From: a virus
Strand: one strand, 5' to 3'
Length of the DNA stretch: 64,000 nucleotides
IMG/VR virus record: IMGVR_UViG_3300005529_000007
Span: 1 to 64,000 of that record
Positions 35,084-54,148 of the stretch are shown in pieces. The notes under the pieces were generated by a model. That model was given only the letters and a program-made list of their open reading frames with translations, had not been told where the DNA came from and ran no database searches. A program made the position numbers and the translations under genes. The stretch's first letter is position 1, and every line of letters starts with the position of its first letter.

Positions 35084-35327
35084 CCGCGTTCAACTCCTTC
35101 TTCCCCTCCAGGACTTCCCGGAGCAGCTTGTCCATGGCCTGCATCAACTGCGCCAGGACATCGCTCTCGGGGTTGAGTAATTCTTTGGAGACCTTGTACG
35201 AGGTCTGGAAGGCATACTTCTCCCCCACCACCTTGCAGATCAGGTCCACTTTTAGTTTGTCGTCATCGGAAGGGGTCGCTATAAGCGCCAGCTTCTCGAT
35301 CTCGAATTTGGATTTAAGTTCTTCCAT
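35076..35327 (-). CDS. Hypothetical beta/helical protein (83 aa)
   Basis: The ATG at 35327 is preferred: AGAAGGGTAC precedes it and a longer frame would run far into the helicase gene. The product has a beta-rich front (KFEIEKLALIATPSDDDK) and a helical back (LLREVLEGKKEL). It is coupled to the helicase gene by a 14-base overlap. Function unknown. Confidence 0.55.
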   Translation of the reverse strand: MEELKSKFEIEKLALIATPSDDDKLKVDLICKVVGEKYAFQTSYKVSKELLNPESDVLAQLMQAMDKLLREVLEGKKELNAVV

Positions 35328-36471: not shown

Positions 36472-36664
36472 TCCCTTTTTCCTTTAGCCTCTTCTCCTGC
36501 GCATCGCAGGCCTCTTCCCACCAGCGGTTGAGACCCACCTGCGCTATGCGCTTCTTGTCTTCTGGATTGAGTCCGTCGATACTAAGATAGGCCGGGATCA
36601 AGAGCAGGTTTCGCCGTCGTGAATGAGCCAAAGCGGTTGGTGATCTCGCTATACTGACGAGCAT
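36443..36664 (-). CDS. Small helical protein (73 aa)
   Basis: ATG at 36664 behind ACGAGAAGA. It overlaps the upstream gene by 83 bases in another frame and the helicase gene by 29. The C-terminal two-thirds (NPEDKKRIAQVGLNRWWEEA) is helical and charged. The N-terminal 20 residues may not be translated if a later start is used. Function unknown. Confidence 0.48.
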   Translation of the reverse strand: MLVSIARSPTALAHSRRRNLLLIPAYLSIDGLNPEDKKRIAQVGLNRWWEEACDAQEKRLKEKGIVRKLSTKR

Positions 36665-36875
36665 TCTTCTCGTCCAAGGTTTCGATCTCCTCGGTCAGGA
36701 AATCTTCTACGATATACCGCAGCCCATGCTCGGAGAGCTGAGGGCGACGAACGGTTAAAGTGCTACCGGAAAAGCCTGCATACTGCGGCTCACCTGAATT
36801 CAGCGAGAGGACAAAGAGAGGCTCCTCCGTGGTCTTCATGTAAACTACAGTTCCGGGTTTGATGGTGTCTGACAA
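36582..36875 (-). CDS. First gene of the helicase operon (97 aa)
   Basis: TTG start with strong GGAGG nine bases upstream. This is the gene that follows promoter-like element 1 (36891-36923). The protein has a beta-rich N-terminus (TVVYMKTTEEPLFVL) and helical middle (LRYIVEDFLTEEIETLDEK), as in small phage regulators that bind sequence ends. No family is assigned. Confidence 0.55.
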   Translation of the reverse strand: MSDTIKPGTVVYMKTTEEPLFVLSLNSGEPQYAGFSGSTLTVRRPQLSEHGLRYIVEDFLTEEIETLDEKNARQYSEITNRFGSFTTAKPALDPGLS

Positions 36876-36890
36876 TTACTTCCTCCGTTA

Positions 36891-36923
36891 AAGATTAGAC
36901 GCTACAGATGTTAAATTCTGGTC
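36891..36923 (-). promoter_or_regulatory. ECF-type promoter-like element 1
   Basis: On the minus strand it begins GACCAGAA and ends GCGTCTAATCTT, one of three 33-bp elements with matching ends and constant length. The GTCTAA core is of the -10 type used by ECF sigma factors, with GACMAGA as a candidate -35 at about 16 bp. It ends 15 bases before the start codon of the 36875 gene, with GGAGG between. The same DNA is also the end of a short open frame upstream (about 36893-36990) that has no convincing start. Confidence 0.65.
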
Positions 36924-37006: not shown

Positions 37007-37369
37007 TTATCGCTCATTTCCCCGTAACCGGATAGCACCGCACCAGCAGAATTGCTTCCCTTGACAACATGAATCGCATGGACATGGGTTGGTCCATATG
37101 TGCCGACCGGACTCGCAGAATGGATGCGTTCTGTCTGTTATCTCGTGGTCTTGAAAGATAGCGGGGAGTGAGCAATACCAGCACTCGTACTCATACCTAC
37201 CTTCAGGTCTATTCGGGCTGCTGGACCGGAGAGTCAGGCTATGCTTTACAGCACATCGGGCCGCATCTATCGCGTGATAGTTAGGGCAATTAGTCGGGTG
37301 TTTAAGCCACGTCAACCCGCAATACTCACACGGTGTATTCCAGAGATCGGGTTTGATCGTGACCTTCAT
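37007..37369 (-). CDS. Cys-rich zinc-binding protein (120 aa)
   Basis: The ATG at 37369 is chosen. The longer frame to 37429 is inside the polymerase gene. It has many metal-ligand-like cysteines: CEYCGL near residue 14, CWYC, then CPCDSCC and CWC. The layout suggests two or three zinc knuckles. Its start overlaps the polymerase end by 44 bases. It may be a DNA-binding accessory factor. No family is known to me. Confidence 0.58.
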   Translation of the reverse strand: MKVTIKPDLWNTPCEYCGLTWLKHPTNCPNYHAIDAARCAVKHSLTLRSSSPNRPEGRYEYECWYCSLPAIFQDHEITDRTHPFCESGRHIWTNPCPCDSCCQGKQFCWCGAIRLRGNER

Positions 37370-39833
37370 AGTCGTCTGCCTCTCCCCAGCTATCTCCCAC
37401 CTTGATGCCAATGGGAATGTGGAACCCACCCAACTCTGGCCAGGGCTGTTCCATAACCTCGCGCACTACCGCTATCAGCTCGTCCACCTGCTCGGCTGGA
37501 CATTCAAACACCAGCGAGTCATGGACCTGGATCAGCAATCTTGCTGGCTTCGGGAGTGCTTTATATATCTTGACAACACGGCGCACCTTCTCCTCGGGCC
37601 AGCCAATCCTCTCGTACATCAGTCCGATCATGGCGCGGAAAATGATGTCTGCGGCAGTGCTCTGGGGCAAGAAGGACAAAGACTCCGTATAGTACGAGCT
37701 TGTCCAGAACCACCTCATCCTTGAGAATGGGGTCCGCAGGTAGCCTTGCTTTTTTGCGAGGTCGGCGGTCCTTTGTTGCCAGGTGATGGTGGGCCATATT
37801 TCTTTTTTCCATTTCTCTTGCAGGTCCCTCGTTTCGACCAGGTCCATGTCGTACATGTTGGCGATCTTCTTGTAACCGCCCCCATAGTTCGTCATGTGGA
37901 CGATGCGCTTGGCTTTGCCATAGGGCGCATCTTTATCGTTGTCTTTTACGACCTCGTCGTAGGGCACTCCGAGGAAGAGGCTGGCGGCATATCGGTGTTC
38001 CGAAAATTTAGGATCAGCTCTGAACCTTTCGAGCCTGGCCTTATCCCCAGCGAAATAAGCCGTGAGCCTGTTTTCGATCTGGGAGTAATCCACGTCAACG
38101 ATCTTCCATCCTTCGTGACTTGGAACGTAAATGAACCGAGCCGTCTCGGGAATGTTTTGAAAGTTCGGATCTGAACTAGATAGCCTTCCTCCGTTTGTCC
38201 CATGTACGTTGAAGTGCGGAAACATTCGGTCAATCTTGACCATGTCCGCTTTAGCAAATGTCGTAATGAGCTCATCGAGTTGGTTCAGTCTCCGAATTGC
38301 CTTGAGGGTACGAGCTTCCTTGGGCTTGCCCGCCTTGACCAGGCGGTGGGTCAACTTGTCCAGGGCGATCTTGCCCGTGGTTACATTGCCACTCTTCTGG
38401 TCAGTGATCTCCTCAAGTCCAAGGCAACCCTCTTCTTTGCTGTATAAATATCTCGCCTTAATTGCAGGAGAGCGCCAAGGAATTTCCTTTTCCGTGGTTG
38501 GGACGAGAACGTATTTAACAGGCTTTCCGCTCTTGCCGAGAGTTCCAGGAGGTGCCTCCCTTCGACGATTAACCTGCACCTCTCTTGTTCGCAGGAAATC
38601 GGGGAGATATTTTTCTTCGTCATCGCGTTCCTTTAGGAGTTTCTCCCGGACGTTCAGGATCTGGTTGGGGTTGATCTTGAAGCCCGTCTCGTGCATGAGG
38701 CGGCAGATCCTGGCCAGGGGAACCTGAACATTGAGATAAAGGTCAAGGAGCTTGTAGCTCTTGACCATAGGCAGAAGCTGATTGAAACATTGCAGCGTGA
38801 CATCAACGTCACGGCAGCAGTACCACTCTAGGCCTAAGCTCTTGTCGTCTTTCCAGGCGGGCTTGTTTACGAACTGACTTCCGACAAACTCAAGGTCATG
38901 AGGAAAGTCCGGGAAACACAAATGCTGGAGGAGCATCGTATCGTAAACGACGCACTCTTCCCGAGCTGTAATATCGAACTTCCGCAATATGGGCAGGTCA
39001 AATTGCAGAGCGTTGTGACCCACCAGCGTTTCCGCTTCTCGGAAGATTCGCTTGAGCTCGGGGATATAGGCTCCCCGGTACGGGATGGTAAGAGCCTTTG
39101 TGGGTTCCGCACACAACCCGACCATGAGGAGTTCTCCGGTCCAGCGGTTGGTTTCAATATCGAAGGCGAATTTTCTGTATCTAAAGGCTCGGACATCTTC
39201 TAGGCTCGGTTGCGGGTTGTAGTGCTCAGGTGGAGGATCGAGGCCTTTCAGGAGGTCATTGACCGCCACCGGGAACATCGTCTGGTCCCGCATGATGTAT
39301 GCGGGGTGGAGGGTGGCTACATAAGGTATTCTTCCGCCGCCAGGCAGAAGGATCTCACCAGGGCTGCCACGCCACTTAAAAATGCCACCGTCCCTTCCAG
39401 CGACGAGCCGTAGTGGTTTATCTCCAAGTAGATCAAGCCGCCTCCAAGGACGAGAAGACAGAAGGGGTTCGAGGTGACTCCTTCGACAATATCTGACAGC
39501 TTCATTTGCATCCTCCTTGGATATGTAACTCCGTGCCTCGGGATCTGTCGGGAAGACATTGTCCGGGGGACGGCATTGAATACAGTTCGTGATGGTCAGG
39601 CCATCGCGGGGGATGTGGGCCTTGGCCAACATCTGGTTGAACCAGTTCCCCGCCCCGCCCACCAACGGCTCCCCGATCTCAGCCTCGTGCTCGCCAGGGG
39701 CCTCGGCAATCACCAGCCTGACCAGGTCCTTGCTGGGGTCAGGCATCTTGGGAGGGACGAAAGAGTTATTGGGAAAGAGCCGCCTCATGGGGCAGCCCTC
39801 GCAACCTGCTACTTCAGAAACTTTTTTAGGCAA
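37326..39833 (-). CDS. Fusion: FeS uracil-DNA glycosylase-like domain, 3'-5' exonuclease and DNA polymerase A
   Basis: 835 residues, TTG start. Residues 1-200 resemble a family-4-type uracil-DNA glycosylase: CEGC, VIAEAPGEHEAE, TNCIQCRPPDN, a later Cys and TLHPAY, enough cysteines for an Fe-S cluster. Residues 215-370 are a proofreading exonuclease (FAFDIETN, GHNALQFDLPIL, CCRDVDVTL). The polymerase carries motif A DVDYSQIENR, motif B KRIVHMTNYGGGY and motif C QVHDSLVFE (Ser for the usual Glu). The SPO1 polymerase also carries an N-terminal UDG-like region. It replicates the phage genome. The start lacks a clear Shine-Dalgarno and follows a hairpin. Confidence 0.9.
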   Translation of the reverse strand: MPKKVSEVAGCEGCPMRRLFPNNSFVPPKMPDPSKDLVRLVIAEAPGEHEAEIGEPLVGGAGNWFNQMLAKAHIPRDGLTITNCIQCRPPDNVFPTDPEARSYISKEDANEAVRYCRRSHLEPLLSSRPWRRLDLLGDKPLRLVAGRDGGIFKWRGSPGEILLPGGGRIPYVATLHPAYIMRDQTMFPVAVNDLLKGLDPPPEHYNPQPSLEDVRAFRYRKFAFDIETNRWTGELLMVGLCAEPTKALTIPYRGAYIPELKRIFREAETLVGHNALQFDLPILRKFDITAREECVVYDTMLLQHLCFPDFPHDLEFVGSQFVNKPAWKDDKSLGLEWYCCRDVDVTLQCFNQLLPMVKSYKLLDLYLNVQVPLARICRLMHETGFKINPNQILNVREKLLKERDDEEKYLPDFLRTREVQVNRRREAPPGTLGKSGKPVKYVLVPTTEKEIPWRSPAIKARYLYSKEEGCLGLEEITDQKSGNVTTGKIALDKLTHRLVKAGKPKEARTLKAIRRLNQLDELITTFAKADMVKIDRMFPHFNVHGTNGGRLSSSDPNFQNIPETARFIYVPSHEGWKIVDVDYSQIENRLTAYFAGDKARLERFRADPKFSEHRYAASLFLGVPYDEVVKDNDKDAPYGKAKRIVHMTNYGGGYKKIANMYDMDLVETRDLQEKWKKEIWPTITWQQRTADLAKKQGYLRTPFSRMRWFWTSSYYTESLSFLPQSTAADIIFRAMIGLMYERIGWPEEKVRRVVKIYKALPKPARLLIQVHDSLVFECPAEQVDELIAVVREVMEQPWPELGGFHIPIGIKVGDSWGEADDYEGHDQTRSLEYTV

Positions 39834-41648: not shown

Positions 41649-42044
41649 TTAGGCCGCTGGCTTCACGTTGAAGATGTCCAGATTGGCCCGAGCGCGGGGG
41701 TACTCAGGAGTAGGGGCGGAGTGCTTCACAGCAGCCGAGAAGCGCGAGCCACTCGCTGCGTTAAGAACTTCCACCGGATTCTGCCCAGGTGTCGAATCCA
41801 AACCCATCACTTCGATGAGCCGCTTGAGAACGCGAGGACTCCAGTCATAGTGTTCAGGATTCGGATACGAGAACGTCAGGCGACGGCCAGTGAATTCACC
41901 GTCGTTTACAATGGTAGCGCTGGCTACGATCCGACCAGATTCGTCTTCACGTGCGCCTGGAGCTAACTCCCAGGTGTAAGTTTTCTCAGGAATGGTTTCG
42001 AGATTCGTAGAGATGTTAGAGAGATCAATGTTTTGCCAACCCAA
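41649..42044 (-). CDS. DUF669-like ssDNA-binding protein candidate (131 aa)
   Basis: The TTG at 42044 is chosen because GGAGG lies 11 bases upstream. Longer frames pass through promoter element 2. The product has TYTWELAPGA, VNDGEFTGRRLTFSY, VLKRLIEVMG and a C-terminal FNVKPAA, an OB-fold-like arrangement of the DUF669 kind found beside phage recombinases and single-strand annealing systems. With the Sak4-like ATPase and Cas4-like nuclease downstream it suggests a recombination module. Assignment by pattern only. Confidence 0.55.
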   Translation of the reverse strand: MGWQNIDLSNISTNLETIPEKTYTWELAPGAREDESGRIVASATIVNDGEFTGRRLTFSYPNPEHYDWSPRVLKRLIEVMGLDSTPGQNPVEVLNAASGSRFSAAVKHSAPTPEYPRARANLDIFNVKPAA

Positions 42045-42074
42045 AGGTGCGACTTCCTCCAATTTTGTCTTGCA

Positions 42075-42107
42075 AAGATTAGACGCTCCAGACGATAATT
42101 TCTTGTC
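42075..42107 (-). promoter_or_regulatory. ECF-type promoter-like element 2
   Basis: On the minus strand it starts GACAAGAA and ends GCGTCTAATCTT, with the same 33-bp length as elements 1 and 3. It lies 30 bases upstream of the DUF669-like start, with GGAGG in between. On the other strand it abuts the ATG of the small plus-strand gene at 42109, so it may sit in a divergent intergenic region. Confidence 0.62.
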
Positions 42108-42945: not shown

Positions 42946-43127
42946 ACAAAATGCTCCCCGCACACGTACTGACTGTAGTGATACCGTTCCTGCAAAGGAG
43001 GAGGCGGACCGTACTTGCGATAGCGATGTGTGTGACCGCGCCCGCAGAGGACGCACTCGTCTGACTCAAACTCATACCAGTAAGAACCAGTACGGTATTG
43101 AATCTCCGGCACACCCCAAGCTCTCAT
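42942..43127 (-). CDS. Zinc-finger-like protein (61 aa)
   Basis: ATG in ATGA with the ATPase stop. It holds CVLCGRGHTHR then C-x2-H near the end, a C-x2-C...C-x2-H site. The centre is aromatic and proline-rich (YGPPPPLQERYHYSQY). It belongs to the block of zinc-binding small genes that follows the recombination module. Confidence 0.55.
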   Translation of the reverse strand: MRAWGVPEIQYRTGSYWYEFESDECVLCGRGHTHRYRKYGPPPPLQERYHYSQYVCGEHFV

Positions 43128-43948
43128 GCCACTACCGCGCTCGTGTACCCTGCTTTGATTTTCTCTAGCAGCATGTTAAACGTCCCCCTGCCCTCCGTGG
43201 GTTTCCCCTCGACGGGCTCGAAGATCTCCTCCCGATCAAGCAGCGCCTTGCTGGAACTATTGGCCCTGCACTTCGCCACGACGCCACCTTCCGGCTGCGT
43301 CACCAGGAACCTCTGGCTGTACTTCGACTTCGCATCTGCGGGATTCCGCAACGCTGTCCGCGTCCGCATCCTCAGCACAAAGTCAAACATCGCTGGCGCT
43401 CCCAGGAACATCTGCCCTGGTAGATCTGGCCCGATGAGGCTCTCCGTCCCTGGAGGATCATCCGGTCCAGCCTTGTCATACTTCTCCAGCGCTGTCACAA
43501 TAATGTGCTTGTCGGGGGCAGAGTCGAACAGCCTGACGAGCAGCCTACGGGATAGTTCTCCCATGACCTGGTAGTCATCGAGCTCCGGTATCCCCTGCTT
43601 CCGCTTGTCCGACTCGCCCCTTGCCCGTGGGATCTGGAGGGCCGCTGCCTTGATGTGCTTGCGCACAACTTCGGTCCAGGAGTCCACAATCAGGCTATCT
43701 TTATCTTTGAAGATCTCTCCTGAGCAGAATTCTTCCACTTCCTTGAAAGACTGAGGTATGACAAAATCAACTGCACGATCAGCAATAGTAAGTAACCCAT
43801 TACCTTGCCCTGTCTCACAAGCGCAGCACCCAGGATTAGGAGCCCCACCAGCCCAAAGAGTTTTACCAGTTCCCGGCAGTCCATATACCAGGACCTTAAT
43901 CTTGAGATTATCCGCATTGACCAGTTCCTTCGTGTTTCTTATCTGCAA
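43124..43948 (-). CDS. Sak4-like RecA-fold ATPase
   Basis: TTG start directly after the upstream stop. 274 residues. Walker A is VYGLPGTGKTLW (residues about 20-31), Walker B-like DSLIVDSWTEV lies near residue 86, and a SIGPDLPGQ-like stretch near residue 163 resembles loop regions. This is the size and layout of Sak4-type phage RecA/RAD51-like ATPases, which drive single-strand annealing with an SSB partner. The DUF669-like and Cas4-like genes are close by in the same direction. Confidence 0.8.
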   Translation of the reverse strand: MQIRNTKELVNADNLKIKVLVYGLPGTGKTLWAGGAPNPGCCACETGQGNGLLTIADRAVDFVIPQSFKEVEEFCSGEIFKDKDSLIVDSWTEVVRKHIKAAALQIPRARGESDKRKQGIPELDDYQVMGELSRRLLVRLFDSAPDKHIIVTALEKYDKAGPDDPPGTESLIGPDLPGQMFLGAPAMFDFVLRMRTRTALRNPADAKSKYSQRFLVTQPEGGVVAKCRANSSSKALLDREEIFEPVEGKPTEGRGTFNMLLEKIKAGYTSAVVA

Positions 43949-44149
43949 CTACTCTGCCTCCAATGAATCGTCAACCGTGGCAGGAATGGCCTCGCAATAC
44001 TCCACTTCCGGCATCCCAAGAGCCCCGCTGTCCCCGTCTTCCAACATTCTCTCCGCAATTACCTCAGCCTCTTCAGGTGAGTTTGCACTGTCTACATAGT
44101 AAGTATGGTCCTGCGTTACAGTCACAGTGACCTTATATGGTTTCTTCAT
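43949..44149 (-). CDS. Hypothetical acidic protein (66 aa)
   Basis: ATG start. Residues 1-22 are basic and beta-like (YKVTVTVTQDHTYYVDS) and the rest is acidic and helical (SPEEAEVIAERMLED). It overlaps the nuclease gene by 17 bases and adjoins the Sak4-like gene, so it is part of the recombination operon. No family recognised. Confidence 0.55.
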   Translation of the reverse strand: MKKPYKVTVTVTQDHTYYVDSANSPEEAEVIAERMLEDGDSGALGMPEVEYCEAIPATVDDSLEAE

Positions 44150-44909
44150 TTTTCTCTTTCATGTGTAGGCGCTTGAAGAGTTTCAGTGCGCCTAAAAAGG
44201 CTTGAAAATCCTGTCGATATTCCCTGCGACCACTGGCGTGGTCCTCAAAGACAGCCGCTTCTTTATCCAGTCGGATTAGTATCCGTTTCTCTATTCGCCG
44301 TTGTGTCTCCTCCTCATAAGCAGCTTGATACGCAGAGGTTTGAAGCCAGTACTCGTCATAAAGAGACTTGGAAGTCTTCCAGTCGATGAGGGTAAGCTCA
44401 CCGTCCACGTATGCAAGTTTGTCCAGCGTCCCACTGAATCTGTGTCGCCGTGAATATATACGACGTTCGACTTCCACAAGCCGAACCTCGTGCTCTCGTA
44501 ACCACGCGAGAGCAGCATCGACACAGGACCTAACCGCAGTACCCTCGGCGGGAAGAAGGGGCTTCTCAGTGCTCTTGAGGTGCTTCTCAAGGAAAGAGTG
44601 AACTTCCTTGCCCACGTTGAGAGCCTCGTCCCGAACGGAACGATAGGCGCTTGTGGCCTGCTTCCATACCTGTTCGAGATAGAGATCGCTGTGAGCGACA
44701 TCAGGACTAACGGCCCCCTTGCAAAGGTTAACTGCCGAGTTGACAGCCCAGGGGATTAGCCAGGGCTTATCAATCACACTGCATATGCGCGTGACCGAGG
44801 GAACCTTACGGCGTTCCTCTCCCTCGATGACGTGATACGTATGGGCCCGGTCGTTGTACTCCAGGCAAACTTCCCCACCATACAAGTGGGTGATTTCTAC
44901 TTCAGCCAA
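44133..44909 (-). CDS. Cas4/RecB-like PD-(D/E)XK exonuclease
   Basis: TTG start. 258 residues. The nuclease core includes RFSGTLDKLAYVDGELTLIDWKTSK (quoted in parts: FSGTLDKLAYVDG, then LTLIDWKTSK) and a Q-x3-Y box in WLQTSAYQAAYEEET, the order seen in phage exonucleases of the Cas4/RecB fold. No iron-sulphur cysteines are visible. The enzyme would supply single-stranded ends for annealing by the DUF669/Sak4 pair. Confidence 0.78.
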   Translation of the reverse strand: MAEVEITHLYGGEVCLEYNDRAHTYHVIEGEERRKVPSVTRICSVIDKPWLIPWAVNSAVNLCKGAVSPDVAHSDLYLEQVWKQATSAYRSVRDEALNVGKEVHSFLEKHLKSTEKPLLPAEGTAVRSCVDAALAWLREHEVRLVEVERRIYSRRHRFSGTLDKLAYVDGELTLIDWKTSKSLYDEYWLQTSAYQAAYEEETQRRIEKRILIRLDKEAAVFEDHASGRREYRQDFQAFLGALKLFKRLHMKEKNEETI

Positions 44910-44915
44910 TAAGTC

Positions 44916-45185
44916 TTATCTGTTCCAGGTGTCCCCCAGTTCTTCGATGCCCCCCTCGATGGCTCCCCATGGAACGGTGATGTCATCAATGGTTTCTCGG
45001 TGTGTGCCAATGGACGAAGTGATGGTGATCCCTTCATCGTTGGCCTGGACGACGTAACCTAGCGTCTGGATTTTTGCGGTCTGTCGCGGCCTTTCGGGGT
45101 TGTATTGCCAGCCCATGTGAGACTTTGAGTCATGCCAACAGAACCTGACTGCTGTCCCAAATGGGATCTTCCGTACTCTTGCCAC
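44916..45185 (-). CDS. First gene of the recombination operon (89 aa)
   Basis: GTG at 45185 with GGAGGAACA directly upstream and promoter element 3 only nine bases from the start. Earlier in-frame starts would lie inside the element. The small protein is beta-rich (AVRFCWHDSKSHMGWQYN; GYVVQANDEGITITSSIG). Function unknown. Confidence 0.55.
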   Translation of the reverse strand: MARVRKIPFGTAVRFCWHDSKSHMGWQYNPERPRQTAKIQTLGYVVQANDEGITITSSIGTHRETIDDITVPWGAIEGGIEELGDTWNR

Positions 45186-45194
45186 TGTTCCTCC

Positions 45195-45227
45195 AAGATT
45201 AGACGCCTGAGAAGGGTGTATCTTGTC
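45195..45227 (-). promoter_or_regulatory. ECF-type promoter-like element 3
   Basis: On the minus strand TTGACAAGATACACC leads into a part that ends GCGTCTAATCTT. The 33-bp length and both ends match elements 1 and 2. If GTCTAA is the -10, transcription starts at or just before the ribosome binding site, leaving an unusually short leader. It faces the recombination operon. Confidence 0.62.
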
Positions 45228-45261
45228 AAGCATCTGTAGTTAATTTGATCTCCCCCGTGTG

Positions 45262-45310
45262 TCTCTCTCTGCCTATATATTTATTAGAAAAAAGATATAT
45301 AAGAGAGAGA
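45262..45310. other. AT-rich inverted repeat in intergenic region
   Basis: TCTCTCTCT-GCC-TATATAT (45262-45280) is mirrored by ATATAT-A-AGAGAGAGA (45295-45310) around an A-rich loop. The 200-base gap 45228-45436 shows no gene. It also contains a direct repeat TTGCATCTC (about 45354 and 45370) and GTGCCTAA at 45338-45345, which shares eight bases with the tandem repeat near the integrase. Candidate operator, terminator remnant or origin. Confidence 0.42.
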
Positions 45311-45436
45311 GCCAAAACCGTACCGCTGAGTCTACTTGTGCCTAAATTTAATTTGCATCTCCTTCAACTTAGTTGCATCTCGGTGCACGCACGATGCGAA
45401 GTATGCAGAAAAGTAGCAGGATAATGATAATTATCT

Positions 45437-46537
45437 TCACAGTTGTGCCTTTCCTTTCCAACGTTCTCTGAAGTCAACTTCCGGGTCCGCCACCAGGGCC
45501 TTGTGTCCCTGGCTTAGGACCTTGTCCACAAGCCTCCGCGCATTGACATCCTTCTCCTTGAATAGCTCGAACCAGTTCACGAGCTGCTTCCAGGGGATGG
45601 TCGTTCGCTTGATGTGCTCTAGCGCAACCTGCGGCTCGGCTGCTGCCAGCTTAGCCGCAGTGAGGCATAAAAAAGCATTCCTGGGATCGTAGAGCCAGCT
45701 CGCCATGGTGCGGTACTCGGTGTGGAGATGCCACGAGGGGCGATAAGCAGGATCGTATTTAAGGTGCCGCTGGACCCGCACATCTCCATAGTGCCCGTAA
45801 TCCCCGGAAGATCGACGGGTCTGTGACTCATGATTCGGAAGAATGTCTAGCTGTTCCAATCGGGCGGTGATAGTATCCAGGGCCTTGACTCTCGCCTTGT
45901 GCTCATCTGTCCAGGTTTCTTCAACTAGCACCTGCTCAGGATTGTCCGGGTCACGCACGACACTGGTCTCGTGCACATATCCTTCCTTCAAGGGGGAGAT
46001 GTCCAGGTGCACGTGGCCTCCCAGGGTCACGGTCCTCCCCGCCAGGCGCGACACGGCCCCGGCCTTCCACTTGTTGCCCAGGTCCAGGGAGTCTGCCCTC
46101 ATCATTAGTTCCTTGAGTCTCTTAACCAAAGTAAAGGTCCCCTTCGCAGGCTGTGGCCGAAGCTCCGCCACGTACCCGCTATGGTCCCAACCGATCTGCC
46201 CCGCATGAGGCAGCTTGTGCGATAGATTCACGCCCTCTCCCGCAGCGTCAAAGACAACAAACTCAGGATCACAACCTACAAGAAATGAATTGACCACAAC
46301 TTCTTCAACCTCCGGTGAAGGTACATCGCCTTCACTTCTATAGTGTCGAGCGTACAAATTTTGGGACTGGAGGAGTATGCCCAAGGGGCGACTCTGGGAA
46401 AGCTGAACCTGGGCTAGTTGGTTCCCATACGACCCCATCAGTTGATTCGTATAGGCATTCCGCCCCTCTTCAAAGCCCTGCTGAAACGCCTGCATCCCTA
46501 GTCCAAGCAAATCCCCCAGCCCGCTAAACCCTCCCAT
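45437..46537 (-). CDS. COOH-NH2 amidoligase 1
   Basis: ATG overlapping the sigma-factor stop. 366 residues. After a 50-residue Gly/Gln-rich leader, the glutamine-synthetase-like amidoligase motifs appear in order: GCDPEF (88-93), YVAELRPQP (122-130), LGGHVHLD (173-179) and HTEYRT (272-277). These acidic and histidine residues would bind Mg-ATP. Such enzymes join a carboxyl to an amine and act in peptide tagging, cell-wall crosslinks or natural product synthesis. It shares its transcript with the ECF sigma factor. Two diverged copies are encoded at 52446 and 58709. Confidence 0.83.
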   Translation of the reverse strand: MGGFSGLGDLLGLGMQAFQQGFEEGRNAYTNQLMGSYGNQLAQVQLSQSRPLGILLQSQNLYARHYRSEGDVPSPEVEEVVVNSFLVGCDPEFVVFDAAGEGVNLSHKLPHAGQIGWDHSGYVAELRPQPAKGTFTLVKRLKELMMRADSLDLGNKWKAGAVSRLAGRTVTLGGHVHLDISPLKEGYVHETSVVRDPDNPEQVLVEETWTDEHKARVKALDTITARLEQLDILPNHESQTRRSSGDYGHYGDVRVQRHLKYDPAYRPSWHLHTEYRTMASWLYDPRNAFLCLTAAKLAAAEPQVALEHIKRTTIPWKQLVNWFELFKEKDVNARRLVDKVLSQGHKALVADPEVDFRERWKGKAQL

Positions 46538-47069
46538 CGCGCATCCTCTCTTCCAGCCTGCGCCAACGCGAGGTCACACAATCCAAGGTCTCGCCTGACT
46601 TCTCAGCAATCTCCGGGAGGGTCATACCCTCCAGCTTGCATCGAACTAAAAACATCTCCTCTTCTTTTAAGCCCTCGGTCAGCTTCTCCAGGGCGATCTC
46701 CGCCTCCAGGCTGTCCTCGAACATCCCCGCCCCCACGTCATCCGTGAGCTCCACCTGCTGCCTGCGCATCTTGTCGCGGATCGCAGTGCGGCACAGGTTG
46801 AGTACAATGGCATGGAACCAGGTGGAGAATTTGCTATCCCCCCGGAACTTGTCAGACATGTAAAGGGCTTTGGTAATGGCCTCGTCAGCGATCTCCTGAT
46901 CGCTTCGGCCTAGAGTGAGGACGCAGACACTTTCTGCGTGATAGCGCAGGGCCTTGAAGAGTTTCTCCAGCACTTGCTCGTCTTGCGTCTCGCGCCAGAG
47001 TTGAAACAGTTCGTTCTCATCGCCGCCACCAACCCCAGTGTTTGAGGTCGTAAAAGAACAAGTGGACAT
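46524..47069 (-). CDS. ECF-type RNA polymerase sigma factor
   Basis: ATG with GAGAGAGG upstream. 181 residues: region 2 (residues 30-110) contains FRGDSKFSTWFHAIVLN followed by the helix RTAIRDKMRR, and region 4 (130-178) contains EEEMFLVRCKLEGMTL then PEIAEKSGETLDCVTSRWR. These match two-domain ECF sigma factors that recognise GTC-type -10 elements. No anti-sigma gene is adjacent. The three 33-bp elements with GTCTAA are the expected targets. The gene ends overlapping amidoligase 1. Confidence 0.9.
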   Translation of the reverse strand: MSTCSFTTSNTGVGGGDENELFQLWRETQDEQVLEKLFKALRYHAESVCVLTLGRSDQEIADEAITKALYMSDKFRGDSKFSTWFHAIVLNLCRTAIRDKMRRQQVELTDDVGAGMFEDSLEAEIALEKLTEGLKEEEMFLVRCKLEGMTLPEIAEKSGETLDCVTSRWRRLEERMRDGRV

Positions 47070-47138
47070 TAAAAGTCAACCTCTCTCCCCTGTCTCGGGG
47101 CTGAATAAATAGAAATCCTGGTAATGCGCTGTGATGTC

Positions 47139-47369
47139 TCATGCTGCTCTCCCTGCCTCGTGCTCCCGCTGCACCCACCACAAGGCCAACTCTACTCGAT
47201 TCGAGAGACCCGTCTTGTCATAGATGCAACAGACATAATTCTTTATTGTGTTCTCTGTGGTTCCGATAGCGTTGGCCACTTCCCGGTTTGTGTTTCCGTC
47301 TGCGACCAGGCGGACGACATCTCGTTCTCGGGGAGTGAGCTCACGCTTCCCTTCGTATCTTGTAGGCAC
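47139..47369 (-). CDS. LuxR-type HTH protein 2 (76 aa)
   Basis: GTG with GGAGGATCT upstream. The product is almost only a LuxR/GerE HTH domain: ELTPRERDVVRLVADGNTN, then REVANAIGTTENTIKNY, the recognition helix. It overlaps the other HTH gene by 127 bases in a different frame, so its ribosome binding site lies inside that gene. A DNA-binding regulator or co-regulator. Confidence 0.75.
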   Translation of the reverse strand: MPTRYEGKRELTPRERDVVRLVADGNTNREVANAIGTTENTIKNYVCCIYDKTGLSNRVELALWWVQREHEAGRAA

Positions 47370-47758
47370 AGATCCTCCTTGTAAATCAGGACAGCCAACT
47401 TCACGCGCTTGACCCCGGTGTCAATTCCATAACGGTCGTACATATTGTTCAGGTGCTGCTTGACTGAACGGTTTGCGATTCCCAACGTCTTTGCCATGTC
47501 TCGGGTCTCGTAACCCTGGAGAAGAAGCTCGACAATCTGCCGCTCGCGGGGGGTGAGGGTGTCCCGCATCTTGTCGCGTGGCATGGTCGCGGCCAGTACT
47601 TCACGGGCGAAGGCGGTTACTGTATTTACCATCTGCCGGACTTTGGCATCGTGAAACATTGGAAGTCCGTATCTATAGCTGTCGTAATTGCGGGCTATTT
47701 CGTCGAGCTTCCATACCAATTCAAGCGCTCGCTTCTCTAGATCGTCGCTCATCGCCAT
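47243..47758 (-). CDS. LuxR-type HTH protein 1 (171 aa)
   Basis: ATG after GGGGGAGATACTACG. An N-terminal helical domain (residues 1-60) is followed by a LuxR HTH: TLTPRERQIVELLLQ, TRDMAKTLGIANRSVKQHL (residues 65-125). Then comes a 50-residue polar tail that overlaps the second HTH gene. A -1 frameshift at the overlap would create a double-HTH protein, but the strong internal ribosome binding site argues for two genes. Confidence 0.75.
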   Translation of the reverse strand: MAMSDDLEKRALELVWKLDEIARNYDSYRYGLPMFHDAKVRQMVNTVTAFAREVLAATMPRDKMRDTLTPRERQIVELLLQGYETRDMAKTLGIANRSVKQHLNNMYDRYGIDTGVKRVKLAVLIYKEDLCLQDTKGSVSSLPENEMSSAWSQTETQTGKWPTLSEPQRTQ

Positions 47759-47943
47759 CGTAGTATCTCCCCCATGAGAATAATTCCGCTGACTACGCCG
47801 AAGAATAGCCCGGCTCCTGCGGCAAACGCTGCCGCCCTAATCGCCCTTGTGTCGCTTACACTTTCGCAGTAAGTATGCAGCCCACAGAACTGGCACTTGC
47901 CAGGAATATCGCAGCCTTCGAAGTTCTCTAGATCGTCGCTCAT
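47749..47943 (-). CDS. Membrane protein with zinc motif (64 aa)
   Basis: ATG start. It begins MSDDLE like the HTH gene next to it, and 17 bases around the two starts are identical. It contains GCDIPGKCQFCGLHTYC, four cysteines for a metal site, and a C-terminal hydrophobic helix (AGAGLFFGVVSGIILMG). The start overlaps the upstream stop in ATGA. Function unknown. Confidence 0.55.
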   Translation of the reverse strand: MSDDLENFEGCDIPGKCQFCGLHTYCESVSDTRAIRAAAFAAGAGLFFGVVSGIILMGEILRWR

Positions 47944-48170
47944 GACGCTGGCTCCTCTGGTGTGGGTGCAGGCGCGGCCTCGAAGTAAAACGTATACGTC
48001 AATGGCAAGACGTACCCGGCACAGTATTCATGAATCATGTAAGGCGGGAGTTCGCTTACAAGAATGAATGGATAACCGCTCCAGTTTCTCAGCGCCTGCC
48101 AGAAACGCTGTTCGGGATTGTCTTCACAGTAGGCGACGAACTTAGCCAGTAATTCGCTGTTCTTGCTCAC
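47940..48170 (-). CDS. Small phage protein (76 aa)
   Basis: ATG start. A helical front (LLAKFVAYCEDNPEQRFWQALRN quoted in parts: LLAKFVAYCED, PEQRFWQALRN) and a Pro/Ala-rich end. The motif FWQALRNW is common in small phage accessory proteins. It is coupled to its neighbours through four-base overlaps. Function unknown. Confidence 0.55.
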   Translation of the reverse strand: MSKNSELLAKFVAYCEDNPEQRFWQALRNWSGYPFILVSELPPYMIHEYCAGYVLPLTYTFYFEAAPAPTPEEPAS

Positions 48171-48520
48171 ACTTCCTCCTTCGGACTCTCCACGGCAGCG
48201 CGGTCAATGGGTGCGCTCGGCTGCGGACTCTGGGCGAGAGCGCGTTCGGCAACGCAATGCAGGCACACGTAATCAGGCACCGACCAGTCTTCAGTGTGCT
48301 CCAGACGCTCGGCTATTTTCTGCAACGCTTCCCGCAGTTGCGCGTTCTCAGCGGAGAGAGCGGCCCGGCCAGCTTGCCATGCTTTATACGCCAGCTCTGT
48401 CGCAAACAGCCAGTATGTACCCTCATTATCCGGGTCTGTTGCGATGGCCAGTTTTTCAGTCTTGGCCCACTTCTCAAACTCCGCTCGGCTCGCTTCCTGT
48501 ACCTCGGTAGGCTCAGTCAT
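48167..48520 (-). CDS. Small phage protein (117 aa)
   Basis: ATG start. The pattern YKAWQAGRAALS, then a coiled coil ENAQLREALQKIAERLEH and a CxxC motif (VCLHC) is seen in many small phage proteins of unknown function. It ends overlapping the 76-residue gene. Confidence 0.55.
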   Translation of the reverse strand: MTEPTEVQEASRAEFEKWAKTEKLAIATDPDNEGTYWLFATELAYKAWQAGRAALSAENAQLREALQKIAERLEHTEDWSVPDYVCLHCVAERALAQSPQPSAPIDRAAVESPKEEV

Positions 48521-49697: not shown

Positions 49698-49892
49698 CTA
49701 ATCTACCAGTCCCTTGGTGAGTTCATACCGCAACTGCTCGGCCCTTCTCATGGCTTCTTCCCGAGGGTTGTACCAATCCCAATAGAGATTCCCAACCCTC
49801 ACCCAGCCACCGCGCCCATCTTCGGGCACTTCTACTTCAACCATTGCTCGGATGCGTCTCCGCAGCACCCTTGCGTCTACGGTATCCGCCAT
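49698..49892 (-). CDS. Small helical protein next to ATP-grasp gene (64 aa)
   Basis: ATG with GAGGTGGGTC upstream. It overlaps the ATP-grasp gene by 56 bases. A helical charged protein (RVLRRRIRAMVEVEV; NPREEAMRRAEQLRYELT). A start at the internal ATG at 49844 would avoid most of the overlap. As the gene after the ATP-grasp ligase, it could be a peptide substrate carrier. Confidence 0.5.
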   Translation of the reverse strand: MADTVDARVLRRRIRAMVEVEVPEDGRGGWVRVGNLYWDWYNPREEAMRRAEQLRYELTKGLVD

Positions 49893-50628
49893 TGACCCAC
49901 CTCACAATGTGCTCCGCAAGAGACGTGATGCCCTGCCGCCGATCTTGCACACCTGGGGCGGTGTTGACCTCCAGGACAAACATCCTATCGTCCATGCTGT
50001 GGATGATGTCCACGGCCCCGAAGTCCAGGTCCATCGCCTCGACCGCCGCTGACCCGAGGTCCTTCAGCGCTTGCGGTGCATTATCGTAAAATCTAAACGC
50101 AAAACCGTGTCCCCAGTTCCACCCGATGCCCGCCGTTCGTCCAACACCGTATCTTTCAGGGTACTGCATAACTTTCTCATACACTGCGATAGGTCTCCGG
50201 CGATACGCCCAGACTCGATACTCTCGTTGCCTCGGGATATACTGTACGAAATAATCACAAGCACCTCCTTGTGTGCGCCATGTGAACTCCACATCATTCT
50301 GGAGTATTGGCACGATGTCCTTCGCCTTCGAGTGCTTGAACTTGCGCCCTAAGATGGGGAAGGAAAGTGGCTGGCCATTCGTCCACCCGCCATTCGTGCT
50401 CCAGGTATTATGTGGAGGCACAAGAACTCCTCTGCTGTGCAGGCGCTGGAGTTCCTGGAATTTGTTTAGCCTGCCTGCATTGCCATTGAGCACGGGCACC
50501 GAAGCAGCCACGGGGACGCCATAAGAAACTATGGCTTCCCCCGGTGTGCCGATCTGTATCCCTTGCTCTTGTAGGAGCTGCCCCAACAGTCTCCCGGTGT
50601 CCCCTTTTACTGCGCGAAGTTCGATCAC
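49837..50628 (-). CDS. ATP-grasp carboxylate-amine ligase
   Basis: ATG start, 263 residues. An N-terminal Rossmann-like pre-ATP-grasp part includes VLNGNAGRLNKFQEL. The ATP-grasp core has FPILGRKFKHSKAKD, REYRVWAYRRRPIAVYEK (adenine and phosphate contacts) and DFGAVDIIHSMDD, then FVLEVNTAPGV, the Mg-binding E-x-N motif. It would join an acyl-phosphate to an amine, as in glutathione-, RimK- or YheCD-type enzymes. It sits behind the GNAT and GATase genes in one operon. Confidence 0.82.
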   Translation of the reverse strand: MIELRAVKGDTGRLLGQLLQEQGIQIGTPGEAIVSYGVPVAASVPVLNGNAGRLNKFQELQRLHSRGVLVPPHNTWSTNGGWTNGQPLSFPILGRKFKHSKAKDIVPILQNDVEFTWRTQGGACDYFVQYIPRQREYRVWAYRRRPIAVYEKVMQYPERYGVGRTAGIGWNWGHGFAFRFYDNAPQALKDLGSAAVEAMDLDFGAVDIIHSMDDRMFVLEVNTAPGVQDRRQGITSLAEHIVRWVNGGYRRRKGAAETHPSNG

Positions 50629-50637
50629 AAAGACTCC

Positions 50638-51099
50638 TTAAAGTTGTTTCGACCAGAACTCAACCACGTGTTTCTCCATGTAGTTTGAAGCAAAGCTCCC
50701 GGTCGTCTTCCATCCTTGTTTCAGTAGCAAGGTGCGCTCGACGATGTTGTCCTCACGTACTGTGGCAACGAGCACTTCTGCCCCTGCCTTTCGTGCGATC
50801 TCTTCTCGGTAGCTCGCCATGAGCGTGCCGATCCCACGCCCTCGTTGAAAGCGGCTGACACTCACCTCGTGCGACACCAGAATCAAGTCGTTCCCTGGCA
50901 TTGGAGCCAGGGCAAAGTTGCACAGACAGAAGCCATTACTTTCCCCTTCACGAACCATGATGCTGGCGTGAAAGTTGTCTCCTGCCGAGTTGGTGGTCAG
51001 CCTGAGATTCTCTGGCCTGATGTAAGTAAGCCTTGCGATGGTCCGCAAGGCTTCCTCGTTGAGTACCTCTTTCGTCTTTTCGTCGAGTGTGTAGATCAC
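50638..51099 (-). CDS. GNAT acyltransferase
   Basis: GTG or ATG start overlapping the amidotransferase stop (ATGA). 153 residues. The acyl-CoA motif is RFQRGRGIGTLMASYREE (residues about 82-99), then a beta-strand VATVREDN and C-terminal WKTTGSFASNYMEKHV. GNAT enzymes acylate amines. In amidoligase gene neighbourhoods they act on the same peptide or amine substrate, the inference made here. Confidence 0.82.
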   Translation of the reverse strand: MIYTLDEKTKEVLNEEALRTIARLTYIRPENLRLTTNSAGDNFHASIMVREGESNGFCLCNFALAPMPGNDLILVSHEVSVSRFQRGRGIGTLMASYREEIARKAGAEVLVATVREDNIVERTLLLKQGWKTTGSFASNYMEKHVVEFWSKQL

Positions 51100-52055
51100 G
51101 CCTTCAACTCCTTGACTGCGAGGAATGTATTACAACCAGTGCAAACCAGTTCCCAGAGGGGCTGGTTCTTCTGGCTGTGCGTAAGACTCACGTACTTTTT
51201 GCACCCCGGACACTCCACTACATCCAAGGTCTTCTCGTCGTAGTACCGTGTGCGATGACTACGATAGTTGTCGTGCAGCTTCCCATAGTCCGGGGCAGTG
51301 TAGAACTTCGCCACCCGGAACTCGTCATGCCACTCCAGCCCACGTTCCCCGAACATGTAGATCGAGTCGTTGTTCATGGTGATAAAGGCCAGGTCCGCCC
51401 GATTGGGCTGCATGAGCAACCCATGCCGCTCTACGAACGGCCTCATGGCATTATGTATCGCCTGCTTTTCACTACTCCACACCAGCAAGTTCGGCGTGCT
51501 CGCCAGCACGAGCGGGCTCCCGCTGCGTGCCAGGACCAGCTTGCCTGGATACGCATTGGCAATGGCTGCGATGGCCACGGAACCTGAGATCTTCCTCAAG
51601 GCCCGCAGACCCTTCATCGTAAAGCCCCCCTCATCGAGGATCGCCCGCAGGATGTCGCTGTCCACGTCTGCCTTCCGGTCCAGCGAAAGCTCCCGGAACA
51701 ACGTGTCATCGTTGTGAATCATGCCGTTGTGCACCACTGCCACGTTCCCGGCAAACACAGGATGATTATTGGCGTTGTCCTTCGGGTTGCCTTGCGTCGC
51801 TGCTCTTGTGTGCCCCAGGAAGATCTCGGTCTCTTCCCTCAGGTGAGCTGTAAGAAACTCCTTATACGCCCGGCTCCTCACGAAGTGATTCGCAGGCTCG
51901 TCCTGCTTGAGCACCTGGACTTCTTCGCCAGGATTTTGCAAGGCCATCCCCGTGGCGTCCAGCCCACGTCTCTCATTCGCGCAGAGAAGCGTGGTGATCT
52001 TCTCCTCGGTTATAGGTTCGTCGCCAAAGCGGCGGATGCCGCAGATTCCACACAT
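51096..52055 (-). CDS. Class-II glutamine amidotransferase domain protein
   Basis: The ATG at 52055 follows GAGGAGAAC. An earlier start would mask the catalytic Cys at position 2. It begins MCGICGIR, so Cys2 becomes the N-terminal nucleophile after Met removal. Then come CANERRGLDATG, GHTRAATQG, NNHPVFAGNVAVVHNG and DSDILR, the GATase-II (Ntn) landmarks. The C-terminus carries a zinc ribbon (CPGC...CTGC). It would release ammonia from glutamine for an amidation by the neighbouring ligases. No separate synthetase domain is present. Confidence 0.85.
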   Translation of the reverse strand: MCGICGIRRFGDEPITEEKITTLLCANERRGLDATGMALQNPGEEVQVLKQDEPANHFVRSRAYKEFLTAHLREETEIFLGHTRAATQGNPKDNANNHPVFAGNVAVVHNGMIHNDDTLFRELSLDRKADVDSDILRAILDEGGFTMKGLRALRKISGSVAIAAIANAYPGKLVLARSGSPLVLASTPNLLVWSSEKQAIHNAMRPFVERHGLLMQPNRADLAFITMNNDSIYMFGERGLEWHDEFRVAKFYTAPDYGKLHDNYRSHRTRYYDEKTLDVVECPGCKKYVSLTHSQKNQPLWELVCTGCNTFLAVKELKA

Positions 52056-52381
52056 GACTGTTCTCCTCGTCCGCTCCAGGCATATCCCTGGATTTCGGCT
52101 TTCTCTCGCTCGGATAGCTCTCCGAAAAACTTCCATTTGTACTGCTGCATCCAGGAAAGGTGCTTTGCCTTATTCTGGTGTTTGATAACCCACTTGCGAA
52201 ATCCGGTTACGTACATACTGCTTTTCCTTGTGTTGCAGAGAGCACAAGCCGGGACCAGGTTCTGTTGGTACTGATGTCTCGTCCAACCCCTGGGTAAGTA
52301 CACCCTCGGTACTTGGTGATCTCTGGTTGTGGCAGGTTGCCCACAATACCAGCAGGGTTTCCCCCTTACATAAGACTTCAT
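52010..52381 (-). CDS. HNH endonuclease (123 aa)
   Basis: The ATG at 52381 is preferred over an in-frame upstream start. It carries CWYCGQPATTRDHQVPR and ACALCNTRKSS, the two zinc-binding pairs and DH catalytic motif of an HNH nuclease. It lies between amidoligase 2 and the amidotransferase and overlaps the latter by 46 bases. Possibly a homing endonuclease that invaded the operon. Confidence 0.75.
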   Translation of the reverse strand: MKSYVRGKPCWYCGQPATTRDHQVPRVYLPRGWTRHQYQQNLVPACALCNTRKSSMYVTGFRKWVIKHQNKAKHLSWMQQYKWKFFGELSEREKAEIQGYAWSGRGEQSCVESAASAALATNL

Positions 52382-52445: not shown

Positions 52446-53954
52446 CTACTCCAAGTCTTTGCTTGGGTATTCGTACAACACTTTGCCCTTGAATCTGACA
52501 GGAGCGGGAACATATTGGGATTTCCACTCCTTCAGACTGTCGCGGTGAACTTTTTTTATGTCCCAGATAGGCAACACTCCGTTGAGTAATGCCTTCTTCA
52601 TCTTGTGGAACCGCTCGCCTTCGCGCCAGTCGGCACCAATGGAGATGTGCTTTCCTCCATCTGCCTCGAAGGTCTTGACCGAAAACGGGAACCTGGTCTG
52701 CCAGCCAGAGGGCAGGTACTTCACCAGGCTCCTGGACAACATCAACGGATGCACGCCTCTTGTATGCCCTTGTATGGACATCTTCAATTCCTTGTGGTAG
52801 CAGATGTCCCAGATCATCTCGCCCAGGCCCTTGGCTTGGTGAGTATTGGCCGTAGCCAGCGCCAGGGCATAGCCATCCGGCAACACAGTCGGGTGCCAGG
52901 TAGCTGTCGGCGTCCTCGCAGGAATGGGCACGCCCGAAAAGAGATGGTCAAACATGTCCCGGACATCCTGCTCACTGGGAGCGATGCTCAAAGGCACAAC
53001 CTTCACGGGCGTCTTCTCTGTCGGGGTCGTGATCCCCCAGCGTCCCTTGAAGTCCCAGCCCACATGCCTCGGGAACCCGCCGCGCTTAATTAGGTACAGC
53101 GCCAGCAGAGCGTCATCGTCCGTGTCCTTGAAGTACGCCAGGAGGTTCCGCAACTTGGCCGCAAGTACCGTAGGATTAGTTCCGTTCCCCGATCTCGTCA
53201 CCAGCCCTGGGCAATGCACACACAGCTTCGCCAGGGTGATGCTGATAAAGGCCAGCGCTGGGCTGTCTAGCCAGCTCGGAAACGTGCGGTACTCATAGCC
53301 GTGGGTCTGTAGCCTAAAGTCCCCCGGCATCCCGTAATGCTGGCCCAGTCGATCCCCGCCTCGCCTCTCGGCCATCTCTCGCGTGGGATAGACGCCCATG
53401 CCAAGCAGATCCTCGGTGAGATTGTCCAGGGCACGGACCTCATCGGCTCTCGTGGGCCGCTTGCGTCCCATGTGCACATGCCCGCCAATCCCGTCACCAA
53501 AGACAAATGCCCCACAGCGCCATTGGTACGTCGTAATACCTTCCACTAAGGTGGACATCCACCTCAGGGTGCTCAGAATGCTCGCGCACACACGCAGCGC
53601 ACACCGGCTCGGGTGAGGCCGAATCTCTGCCAGTCGCCCGTTGTTGTCTGCGCCAAACGCTGGCCCTTGTTGCAAGCCCAGGTGATGTGCATCCACCCGA
53701 GAATCCTCATCTCTCGTCAGCCCACTGCTCACGAACACGAACTCCGGGTCAGCTCCCAGCTTGAAGCGATTCACATACCGCCTCTGCGGGCCGAACTCGG
53801 GCAACTTCTGGAGCCGTTTCAACCAGCTCTCTAGCTTCTGGTCGGAGACCGTGTAGCCCAACGGGAACGCACGGTGGATTCCCTCCGGCGCAGAGATCCC
53901 GTGGCTGATGGCCACCCGATAAAAGGCATCCTTGAGTTTCACAAGTTCGCTCAT
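52446..53954 (-). CDS. COOH-NH2 amidoligase 2 (502 aa)
   Basis: The ATG at 53954 overlaps the upstream stop as ATGA. It carries all amidoligase motifs: LGADPEF (66-72), RLAEIRPHP (107-115), IGGHVHMG (156-163) and GYEYRTFPSW (219-228). A 250-residue C-terminal region is absent from copy 1. It may recognise the amine or peptide substrate. It has the ATP-binding residues DPE, AEI and GGHVH. The nearby ATP-grasp, GNAT and GATase genes make a shared pathway likely. Confidence 0.85.
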   Translation of the reverse strand: MSELVKLKDAFYRVAISHGISAPEGIHRAFPLGYTVSDQKLESWLKRLQKLPEFGPQRRYVNRFKLGADPEFVFVSSGLTRDEDSRVDAHHLGLQQGPAFGADNNGRLAEIRPHPSRCALRVCASILSTLRWMSTLVEGITTYQWRCGAFVFGDGIGGHVHMGRKRPTRADEVRALDNLTEDLLGMGVYPTREMAERRGGDRLGQHYGMPGDFRLQTHGYEYRTFPSWLDSPALAFISITLAKLCVHCPGLVTRSGNGTNPTVLAAKLRNLLAYFKDTDDDALLALYLIKRGGFPRHVGWDFKGRWGITTPTEKTPVKVVPLSIAPSEQDVRDMFDHLFSGVPIPARTPTATWHPTVLPDGYALALATANTHQAKGLGEMIWDICYHKELKMSIQGHTRGVHPLMLSRSLVKYLPSGWQTRFPFSVKTFEADGGKHISIGADWREGERFHKMKKALLNGVLPIWDIKKVHRDSLKEWKSQYVPAPVRFKGKVLYEYPSKDLE

Positions 53955-54148
53955 AGTTCGGTCCTCGGCTCCAAGTGCACCAGCCCTCCACAAGAAGAAC
54001 AAATCACGTAGGGAAATGGCATCGAATTCACGGATGTTTCATGCACGCTGCCACACACGCTACAAGCTCCCCACATCCCTCCTACTTCTTCTGCGGCAGT
54101 AACCCCGTCCAGCTCGTAGATCTCCCCGTCTACATGTTGCTCAGCCAT
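53951..54148 (-). CDS. Zinc-ribbon protein (65 aa)
   Basis: The ATG at 54148 is preferred. A longer frame runs into the previous gene. The product has GACSVCGSVHET and ICSSCGGLV, a CxxC...CxxC zinc ribbon, after an acidic N-terminus. The stop is coupled to amidoligase 2 (ATGA), so it may be a partner or carrier of that enzyme. Confidence 0.55.
   Translation of the reverse strand: MAEQHVDGEIYELDGVTAAEEVGGMWGACSVCGSVHETSVNSMPFPYVICSSCGGLVHLEPRTEL

Follow-up and report, generated by a model that had tools for sequence, protein, structure and literature searches.

The closest described systems are those of phages phiEco32 and 7-11, in which regulons of phage-encoded sigma factors were demonstrated by experiment (PMC8948821). 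The 7-11 sigma directed transcription in vitro, and matching 5' ends were detected in infected cells. Promoter positions agree between phiEco32 and 7-11, whereas promoter sequences do not; the two phages are said to have acquired their sigmas independently, and the authors predicted further such sigma-promoter pairs (PMC8948821). The first-pass annotation of the DNA studied here had called such a regulon unusual, a description that these precedents correct. A phage sigma regulon is already known; what is new is the apparent radiation of specificities within one family. A search of open-access journal papers found none that treats this family of phages or describes a radiation of this kind.

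The window analyzed here is a stretch of DNA comprising bases 1-64000 of a 67,168-bp virus record from a soil phage. A 120-bp direct repeat is found at both ends of the record, which is therefore probably complete. Two integrase genes of the Phage_integrase family (30012-30878, plus strand; 31586-32902, minus strand) suggest a temperate phage. As in 7-11, the early genes run leftward and the structural genes rightward (PMC8948821). The structural region also encodes a 1647-aa protein without a Pfam match (25072-30015, plus strand). The regulator under study is encoded as follows.

46524-47069, minus strand: ECF-type sigma factor gene, 181 aa (NCBIfam TIGR02937, Pfam, AlphaFold model)

The identification of this gene as a two-domain ECF sigma factor was borne out by a curated profile and by fold search. 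Its product matched TIGR02937 (sigma70-ECF) over the full length at 44.9 bits, compared with a cut-off of 42.9, and Pfam Sigma70_r2 (sigma region 2) above cut-off; region 4, which Pfam did not reach, was covered by the full-length NCBIfam match and the AlphaFold model. The model (mean pLDDT 80) contains helices for two domains and a low-confidence linker, with regions 2 and 4 only and no region 3. The best Foldseek matches were sigmaE, SigH, AlgU, and SigW chains; both domains of sigmaE, SigH, and SigW were covered, with low overall TM-scores (0.3-0.4) because the domain arrangement is not fixed.

The bacterial ECF sigmas (RpoE, SigW, SigH, SigL) likewise have two domains and provided the best sequence and fold matches. 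Unlike in those systems, no promoter element lies directly before the sigma gene, and thus there is no sign of autoregulation, nor was an anti-sigma gene recognized next to it. Promoter scans revealed no sigma-70-like promoter near the sigma gene and no excess of them in the early region. Among phage sigmas, the 7-11 protein (SaPh711_gp47) is also ECF-like with a region 4 (PMC8948821). In a two-protein search, the profile of the sigmas studied here matched gp47 in region 4 only (E=2.5e-8) and did not match phiEco32 gp36. The proposed likeness to gp36 is that of a phage sigma controlling middle and late genes located at similar genome positions (PMC8948821). Phage 7-11 belongs to a different phage family, and portal matches in the phage collection were only 20-27% identical.

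The sigma gene had been linked to three minus-strand 33-bp elements of the form GACMAGA-N14-GCGTCTAATCTT, all of which we recovered as exact matches. The motif search proposed for the genome yielded a fourth copy in the same record, beyond the window.

45195-45227, minus strand: element A, exact match, with a -35-like GACAAGA (45221-45227) and a -10-like GCGTCTAATCTT (45195-45206)
42075-42107, minus strand: element B, exact match, GACAAGA-N14-GCGTCTAATCTT
36891-36923, minus strand: element C, exact match, GACCAGA-N14-GCGTCTAATCTT
65521-65553 of the record, plus strand, outside the window: fourth element, GACAAGA-N14-GCGTCTAATCTA

The three matches were obtained in none of 100 dinucleotide-preserving shuffles of the window, even at 3 mismatches. 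With a weight matrix built from the four copies, the elements scored 41.0-43.8, and no other place in the record exceeded 7.3. A weaker site at 799 (plus strand; GACAAGG-...-TCTAA) fell outside the ten best-scoring places of the record and was not counted. The sole IMG/VR match to the exact motif (L005) lies inside a ribonucleotide-reductase-like CDS of an unrelated phage and was taken as chance.

Element A was absent from a scan for sigma-70 promoters (TTGACA-16 to 18-TATAAT) of 44500-48500, a stretch that covers A, with B and C falling outside it; in element A, TTGACA and TAATCT are 22 nt apart. The -10 sequence CG-TCTAAT is of the T-C/G-N-A/C-A type and fits ECF promoters as described for sigmaL (PMC6372665), for which a preference for C-G immediately before the -10 is also known. 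The promoters of 7-11 are likewise two-part and few (GTAAtg-16-aCTA, 8 copies before late genes), with a spacing that differs by 2 nt from the GTAATA type found among the phages studied here, whereas those of phiEco32 consist of a single element, tAATGTAtA, without a -35 (PMC8948821).

The elements precede the likely start codons by 9 nt (A; GTG 45185), 15 nt (C; TTG 36875), and 30 nt (B; TTG 42044) and end 0, 4, and 14 nt before GGAGG Shine-Dalgarno sequences, with GGAGG directly following A. The distance of 9-30 bases given earlier is correct for the start codons but not for the ribosome binding sites to which it was assigned. This proximity of the GCGTCTAATCTT block to the Shine-Dalgarno sequences at three genes would suit a leader RNA element, such as a translation or antitermination signal. 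We consider this next to negligible, as conservation is equally high in the -35 block and the 3' block, the two stand at a fixed distance from each other, and the stretch between element and start ranges from about 5 to >100 nt in relatives. Starts lying 9-14 nt from TCTAA at several sites also raised the idea of leaderless transcripts, which was dropped when the aligned start in G004/G019 turned out to be a GTG further downstream.

The genes led by the elements in the window are listed below.

44916-45185, minus strand: first gene after A, a small conserved protein (WxDSK..GW); orthologues by profile search
44133-44909, minus strand: PD-(D/E)XK exonuclease downstream of A (PHROG 298, PF12705)
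43124-43948, minus strand: Sak4-like single-strand annealing ATPase downstream of A (PHROG 124, PF13479)
41649-42062, minus strand: first gene after B, start at 42062 or 42044; orthologues by profile search
37326-39833, minus strand: DNA polymerase A with a UDG-like N-terminal domain, downstream of B (PF00476, PF03167)
36582-36875, minus strand: first gene after C; orthologues by profile search
35314-36471, minus strand: DUF3987 / primase-helicase-like gene downstream of C (PF13148, PHROGs primase/helicase)

The first of these heads the recombination genes and has no PHROGs match; its orthologue is led by an element of different sequence in six relatives. The label "DUF669-like" for 41649-42062 was not upheld, as neither Pfam nor PHROGs gave a match. 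The fourth element sits at the start of a small-terminase-like ORF, which is terS-like by position only and is followed by the large terminase gene (PF03237, PHROG 2). The proposal of a regulon of replication and recombination genes is supported but incomplete, as packaging genes would belong to it too. A repeated promoter element preceding middle and late operons of the same phage is found here, as in the phiEco32/7-11 kind of regulon. In this phage, and in the relatives in which both could be placed, the sigma gene and the first operon led by an element share a strand, with the sigma gene at most a few kb upstream.

We infer, with a probability of roughly 0.87, that the phage ECF sigma switches the host polymerase to middle and late genes and that sigma and promoters diverge together by descent. 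The sigma would be made early, likely through host-sigma transcription of the leftward early genes, and would bind the host RNA polymerase core and direct it to the two-part phage promoters, with region 4 reading the -35-like GACMAGA and region 2 the -10-like CGTCTAAT. The putative promoters stand before the recombination, polymerase, and primase-helicase genes and, beyond the end of the window, before those for terminase and structural proteins. The sigma would act as a switch to middle and late expression. Expression would likely begin with the early leftward genes, that of the sigma included, followed by sigma-dependent recombination and replication together with packaging and structure from the opposite strand. 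Relatives would have kept the circuit at the same genes while their promoters, chiefly the -35 block, changed in step across the regulon. A phage ECF sigma reading these elements, as the first-pass annotation proposed, would fit their two-part geometry, their position between genes, and, most of all, the findings in relatives; direct recognition appears probable.

Searches for sigma relatives with peptide seeds, and by tblastn in phage records, 7-11 included, found no match, so that portal and head proteins were needed to find relatives. A portal search identified 40 related loci in IMG/VR, from which we took 19 records (G001-G019). The sigma query matched 11 of them at E<=10 and eight at E<=1e-7; a match in G011 (E=6e-7) lay inside a 2379-aa ORF and was dropped. 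The sigma alignment (A1) leaves out G011 as well as G014 and G015, the last two being distant and without an element; its eight relatives are about 23-38% identical to the sigma of this phage. All nine members matched TIGR02937 at E<=0.05, and, among proteins of known structure, the nine-member family profile matched sigmaE, SigW, and SigH as well as others. G017, G018, and G023 were covered by their first 40,000 bases; fewer methods were applied to G007, G012, G022, G023, and G027-G029 than to the other records; and G022, with a partial sigma, was left out throughout.

The 12-bp -10 block with one mismatch was matched in 6 of the 19 records, with repeated variants in some. Ten relatives each have their own repeated two-part element with a common geometry.

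G001: -35 GGAAATAAA, -10 CATCTAATA
G004: -35 GTAATAA, -10 GGTCTAAA
G005: -35 GTTACCT, -10 GGTCTAAA
G006: -35 CTTAAGTTTTC, -10 CGTCTAAAG
G008: -35 GTTGTA, -10 GATACTAATA
G009: -35 GAGTCAAAA, -10 CGTCTAATA
G010: -35 GGGTAAAA, -10 CGTCTAATATA
G013: -35 GGTACCA, -10 CGTCTAAT
G016: -35 GGGAA, -10 CGTCTAATATA
G019: -35 GTAATAT, -10 (T/G)(A/G)TCTAAA

Together with this phage, the 11 records contain 48 sites, with 2-8 own elements each. Across the element-bearing records, (C/G)TCTAA is the usual core of the -10, and some 24 nt separate the start of the -35 block from the T/A of [T/A]CTAA; the -35 sequence itself is mostly peculiar to each phage. In related phages, for which a search for the motif had been proposed, the arrangement is conserved but the exact motif of this phage is not. 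Promoters at the same places with different sequences suggest that sigma and promoters change together. A cross-scan with the site matrices was nearly diagonal, the off-diagonal signals being G004/G019, G010/G016, G010 on G009, and one of G001 on G004.

When the matrices were run on simulated genomes (10 Markov-2 simulations for each of the 11 records), nothing reached the threshold. Their seeds had been picked by hand from the scans, and we therefore also ran an unanchored search for repeated 6+6 words. The support of the best cluster was 6-28 in 9 of the 11 records, compared with at most 5 in 132 simulated genomes; G009 (support 3) and G016 (support 1) were not significant by that test alone, and G002, G003, G011, G014, G015, G017, and G018 (support 1-2) did not stand out. 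Neither the scans nor the unanchored search found an element in G014 or G015, which carry a more distant sigma. Reversed genomes proved worthless as a motif-discovery control, since a two-block word that recurs in a genome recurs equally in its reverse; only the simulations count. G002/G018 and G003 showed single candidates before the terS-like gene, and L040 showed two sites; all of these were left uncounted.

None of the 48 sites lies within homology-supported coding sequence, which spans 42-80% of the 11 records; this is the opposite of the random occurrence within relatives' coding sequence that had been named as a refutation. By orthologue placement, 33 of the 48 sites precede genes of six orthologous classes. 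An element precedes the terS-like gene in 11 of 11 records (about 200 nt off in G006), the recombination leader in seven of the nine records having it, the gene after B in six of eight, and the gene after C in four of eight; two further classes are element-led in three and two records. As the classes were drawn from the downstream genes themselves, the argument rests on the recurrence of terS, A, B, and C across phages with differing -35 blocks.

With 19 specified positions within this phage, the elements exceed the length and conservation usual for a promoter and could instead be operators for another phage regulator, for example two LuxR-type HTH proteins (47139-47369 and 47243-47758) whose genes adjoin the sigma gene and whose family binds DNA. 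In the other 10 records with elements, neither of these proteins has a relative at E<=1e-6, whereas by the same test seven of the eight large ones contain a relative of the sigma, and the fixed two-block spacing with an ECF-like -10 has the look of a promoter, which makes operators a remote prospect.

For a held-out test, a head-protein scan identified 61 loci and supplied ten new large records (G020-G029), six of which matched the sigma profile, one of them partially. A prediction was fixed in advance and evaluated by a strict automatic scan; none of the five records carrying a complete sigma bore it out. Later manual reading upstream of the orthologues found elements with the 24-nt geometry in three of the five and none in G021 and G026.

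G020: GTCAGAAA / AGACTAAT, three sites before A, B, and D, and an extra match in a likely coding stretch
G024: AGACCCAAA / CGTCTAAT, two sites
G025: TGTAACA / GCGTCTTATA, two sites clear and two weaker

The numbers expected in mononucleotide shuffles were 0.15 (G020), 0.05 (G024), and 0.00 (G025). With these, the two-part arrangement was found in 14 of 30 records (11 plus G020, G024, and G025), the 16 without a counted arrangement including several fragments and some examined by fewer methods.

Twelve of the 14 element-bearing records contain the sigma gene, and the remaining two (G009 and G016) are fragments. Moreover, G000, G001, G004, G005, and G019 have major head proteins that are 84-93% identical and yet differ in their -35 blocks, except for G004/G019, whose sigmas are the most alike. 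Both observations speak against the elements being promoters for a host ECF sigma, with each phage copying its host's type and the phage sigma doing something else. ECF promoters are common in bacteria, and host differences could account for the differing -35 blocks; weak hints to hosts came from two MAGs, one of Terriglobia with a portal relative on a 3.3-kb contig and one of Nitrospiraceae containing a short piece. On balance, we regard recognition by a host sigma as very unlikely.

Our preferred reading, a phage sigma that diverges together with its promoters, was assessed by comparing distances. For the nine phages with both parts, the distances in region 4 and in the -35 block were correlated (r=0.42, p=0.017), whereas -10 distances showed no such relation to region 4 (r=0.05). 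Allowing for portal distance, the correlation of region 4 with the -35 was r=0.30, p=0.04, and allowing for head protein distance r=0.29, p=0.05; with 12 phages, it was r=0.24, p=0.058. Region 2 distance gave r=0.38, p=0.026 with the -35 (nine phages) and r=0.30, p=0.06 (nine phages) or r=0.21, p=0.10 (12 phages) with the -10. Statistically, region 4 and the -35 block are only weakly linked, and the result is suggestive at most. Sigma distances track portal (Mantel r=0.77) and head protein (r=0.67) distances, which speaks for divergence by descent and not by repeated replacement. In several pairs that include this phage, few shared genes are more diverged than the sigma, and in two pairs none is; its divergence is average in the close pair G004/G019, in which the sigmas are 51% identical and the -35 blocks near-identical.

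From these comparisons, we tentatively propose, at slightly less than even odds, that within one family and by vertical descent the sigma and all of its 3-8 promoters repeatedly acquired new -35 specificities in concert, with almost no overlap among these specificities, while identity among head proteins remained at 84-93%. Such a history, if true, would amount to a naturally occurring radiation of orthogonal sigma-promoter systems, for which selection against cross-talk of co-infecting phages or against a promoter-reading host defense is a possible driver. It bears on the old question of how a regulator and all its binding sites shift specificity jointly without a dead intermediate. PMC8948821 describes two phages; here, a series of related phages carries homologous sigmas, most with their own -35, amounting to about a dozen compact regulons at the same three or four genes with differing promoters. 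Being open to in vitro tests, singly and crosswise, the sigma-promoter pairs could reveal the residues that change -35 and -10 specificity. The pairs would supply new orthogonal sigma-promoter systems, and the elements give promoter maps for uncultivated phages.

As post hoc leads only, a recognition helix RW[SN]RL coincides with GT[AT]A-type -35 blocks (G004, G005, G019, and G025), and "HAL" in region 2 coincides with ACTAA (G008 and G020). A second repeated motif, approximately CCAGGC-N-AAACCCCTCT, occurs in G008 (54157, 46813, 37415, and 22329, minus strand) and G016 (13481 and 19296, plus strand; 3064, minus strand) and may be a terminator or a signal of some other kind. At or near the record ends of G008 (65-150, 64934-65112), G016 (366-500), and G019 (22-110, 68199-68301) lie degenerate 6-bp tandem repeats (GGTCTG- or GACCCC-like).

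A further likeness to phiEco32 is the presence of COOH-NH2 ligase genes (PF14395), of which this phage has three (45437-46537, 52446-54002, and 58709-60148, minus strand). Near them are genes for a glutamine amidotransferase (49837-50628), a GNAT acetyltransferase (50638-51099), and a below-cut-off RimK ATP-grasp match (51096-52136), all on the minus strand; together, the ligases and their neighbors perhaps form a pathway that builds or modifies a peptide.
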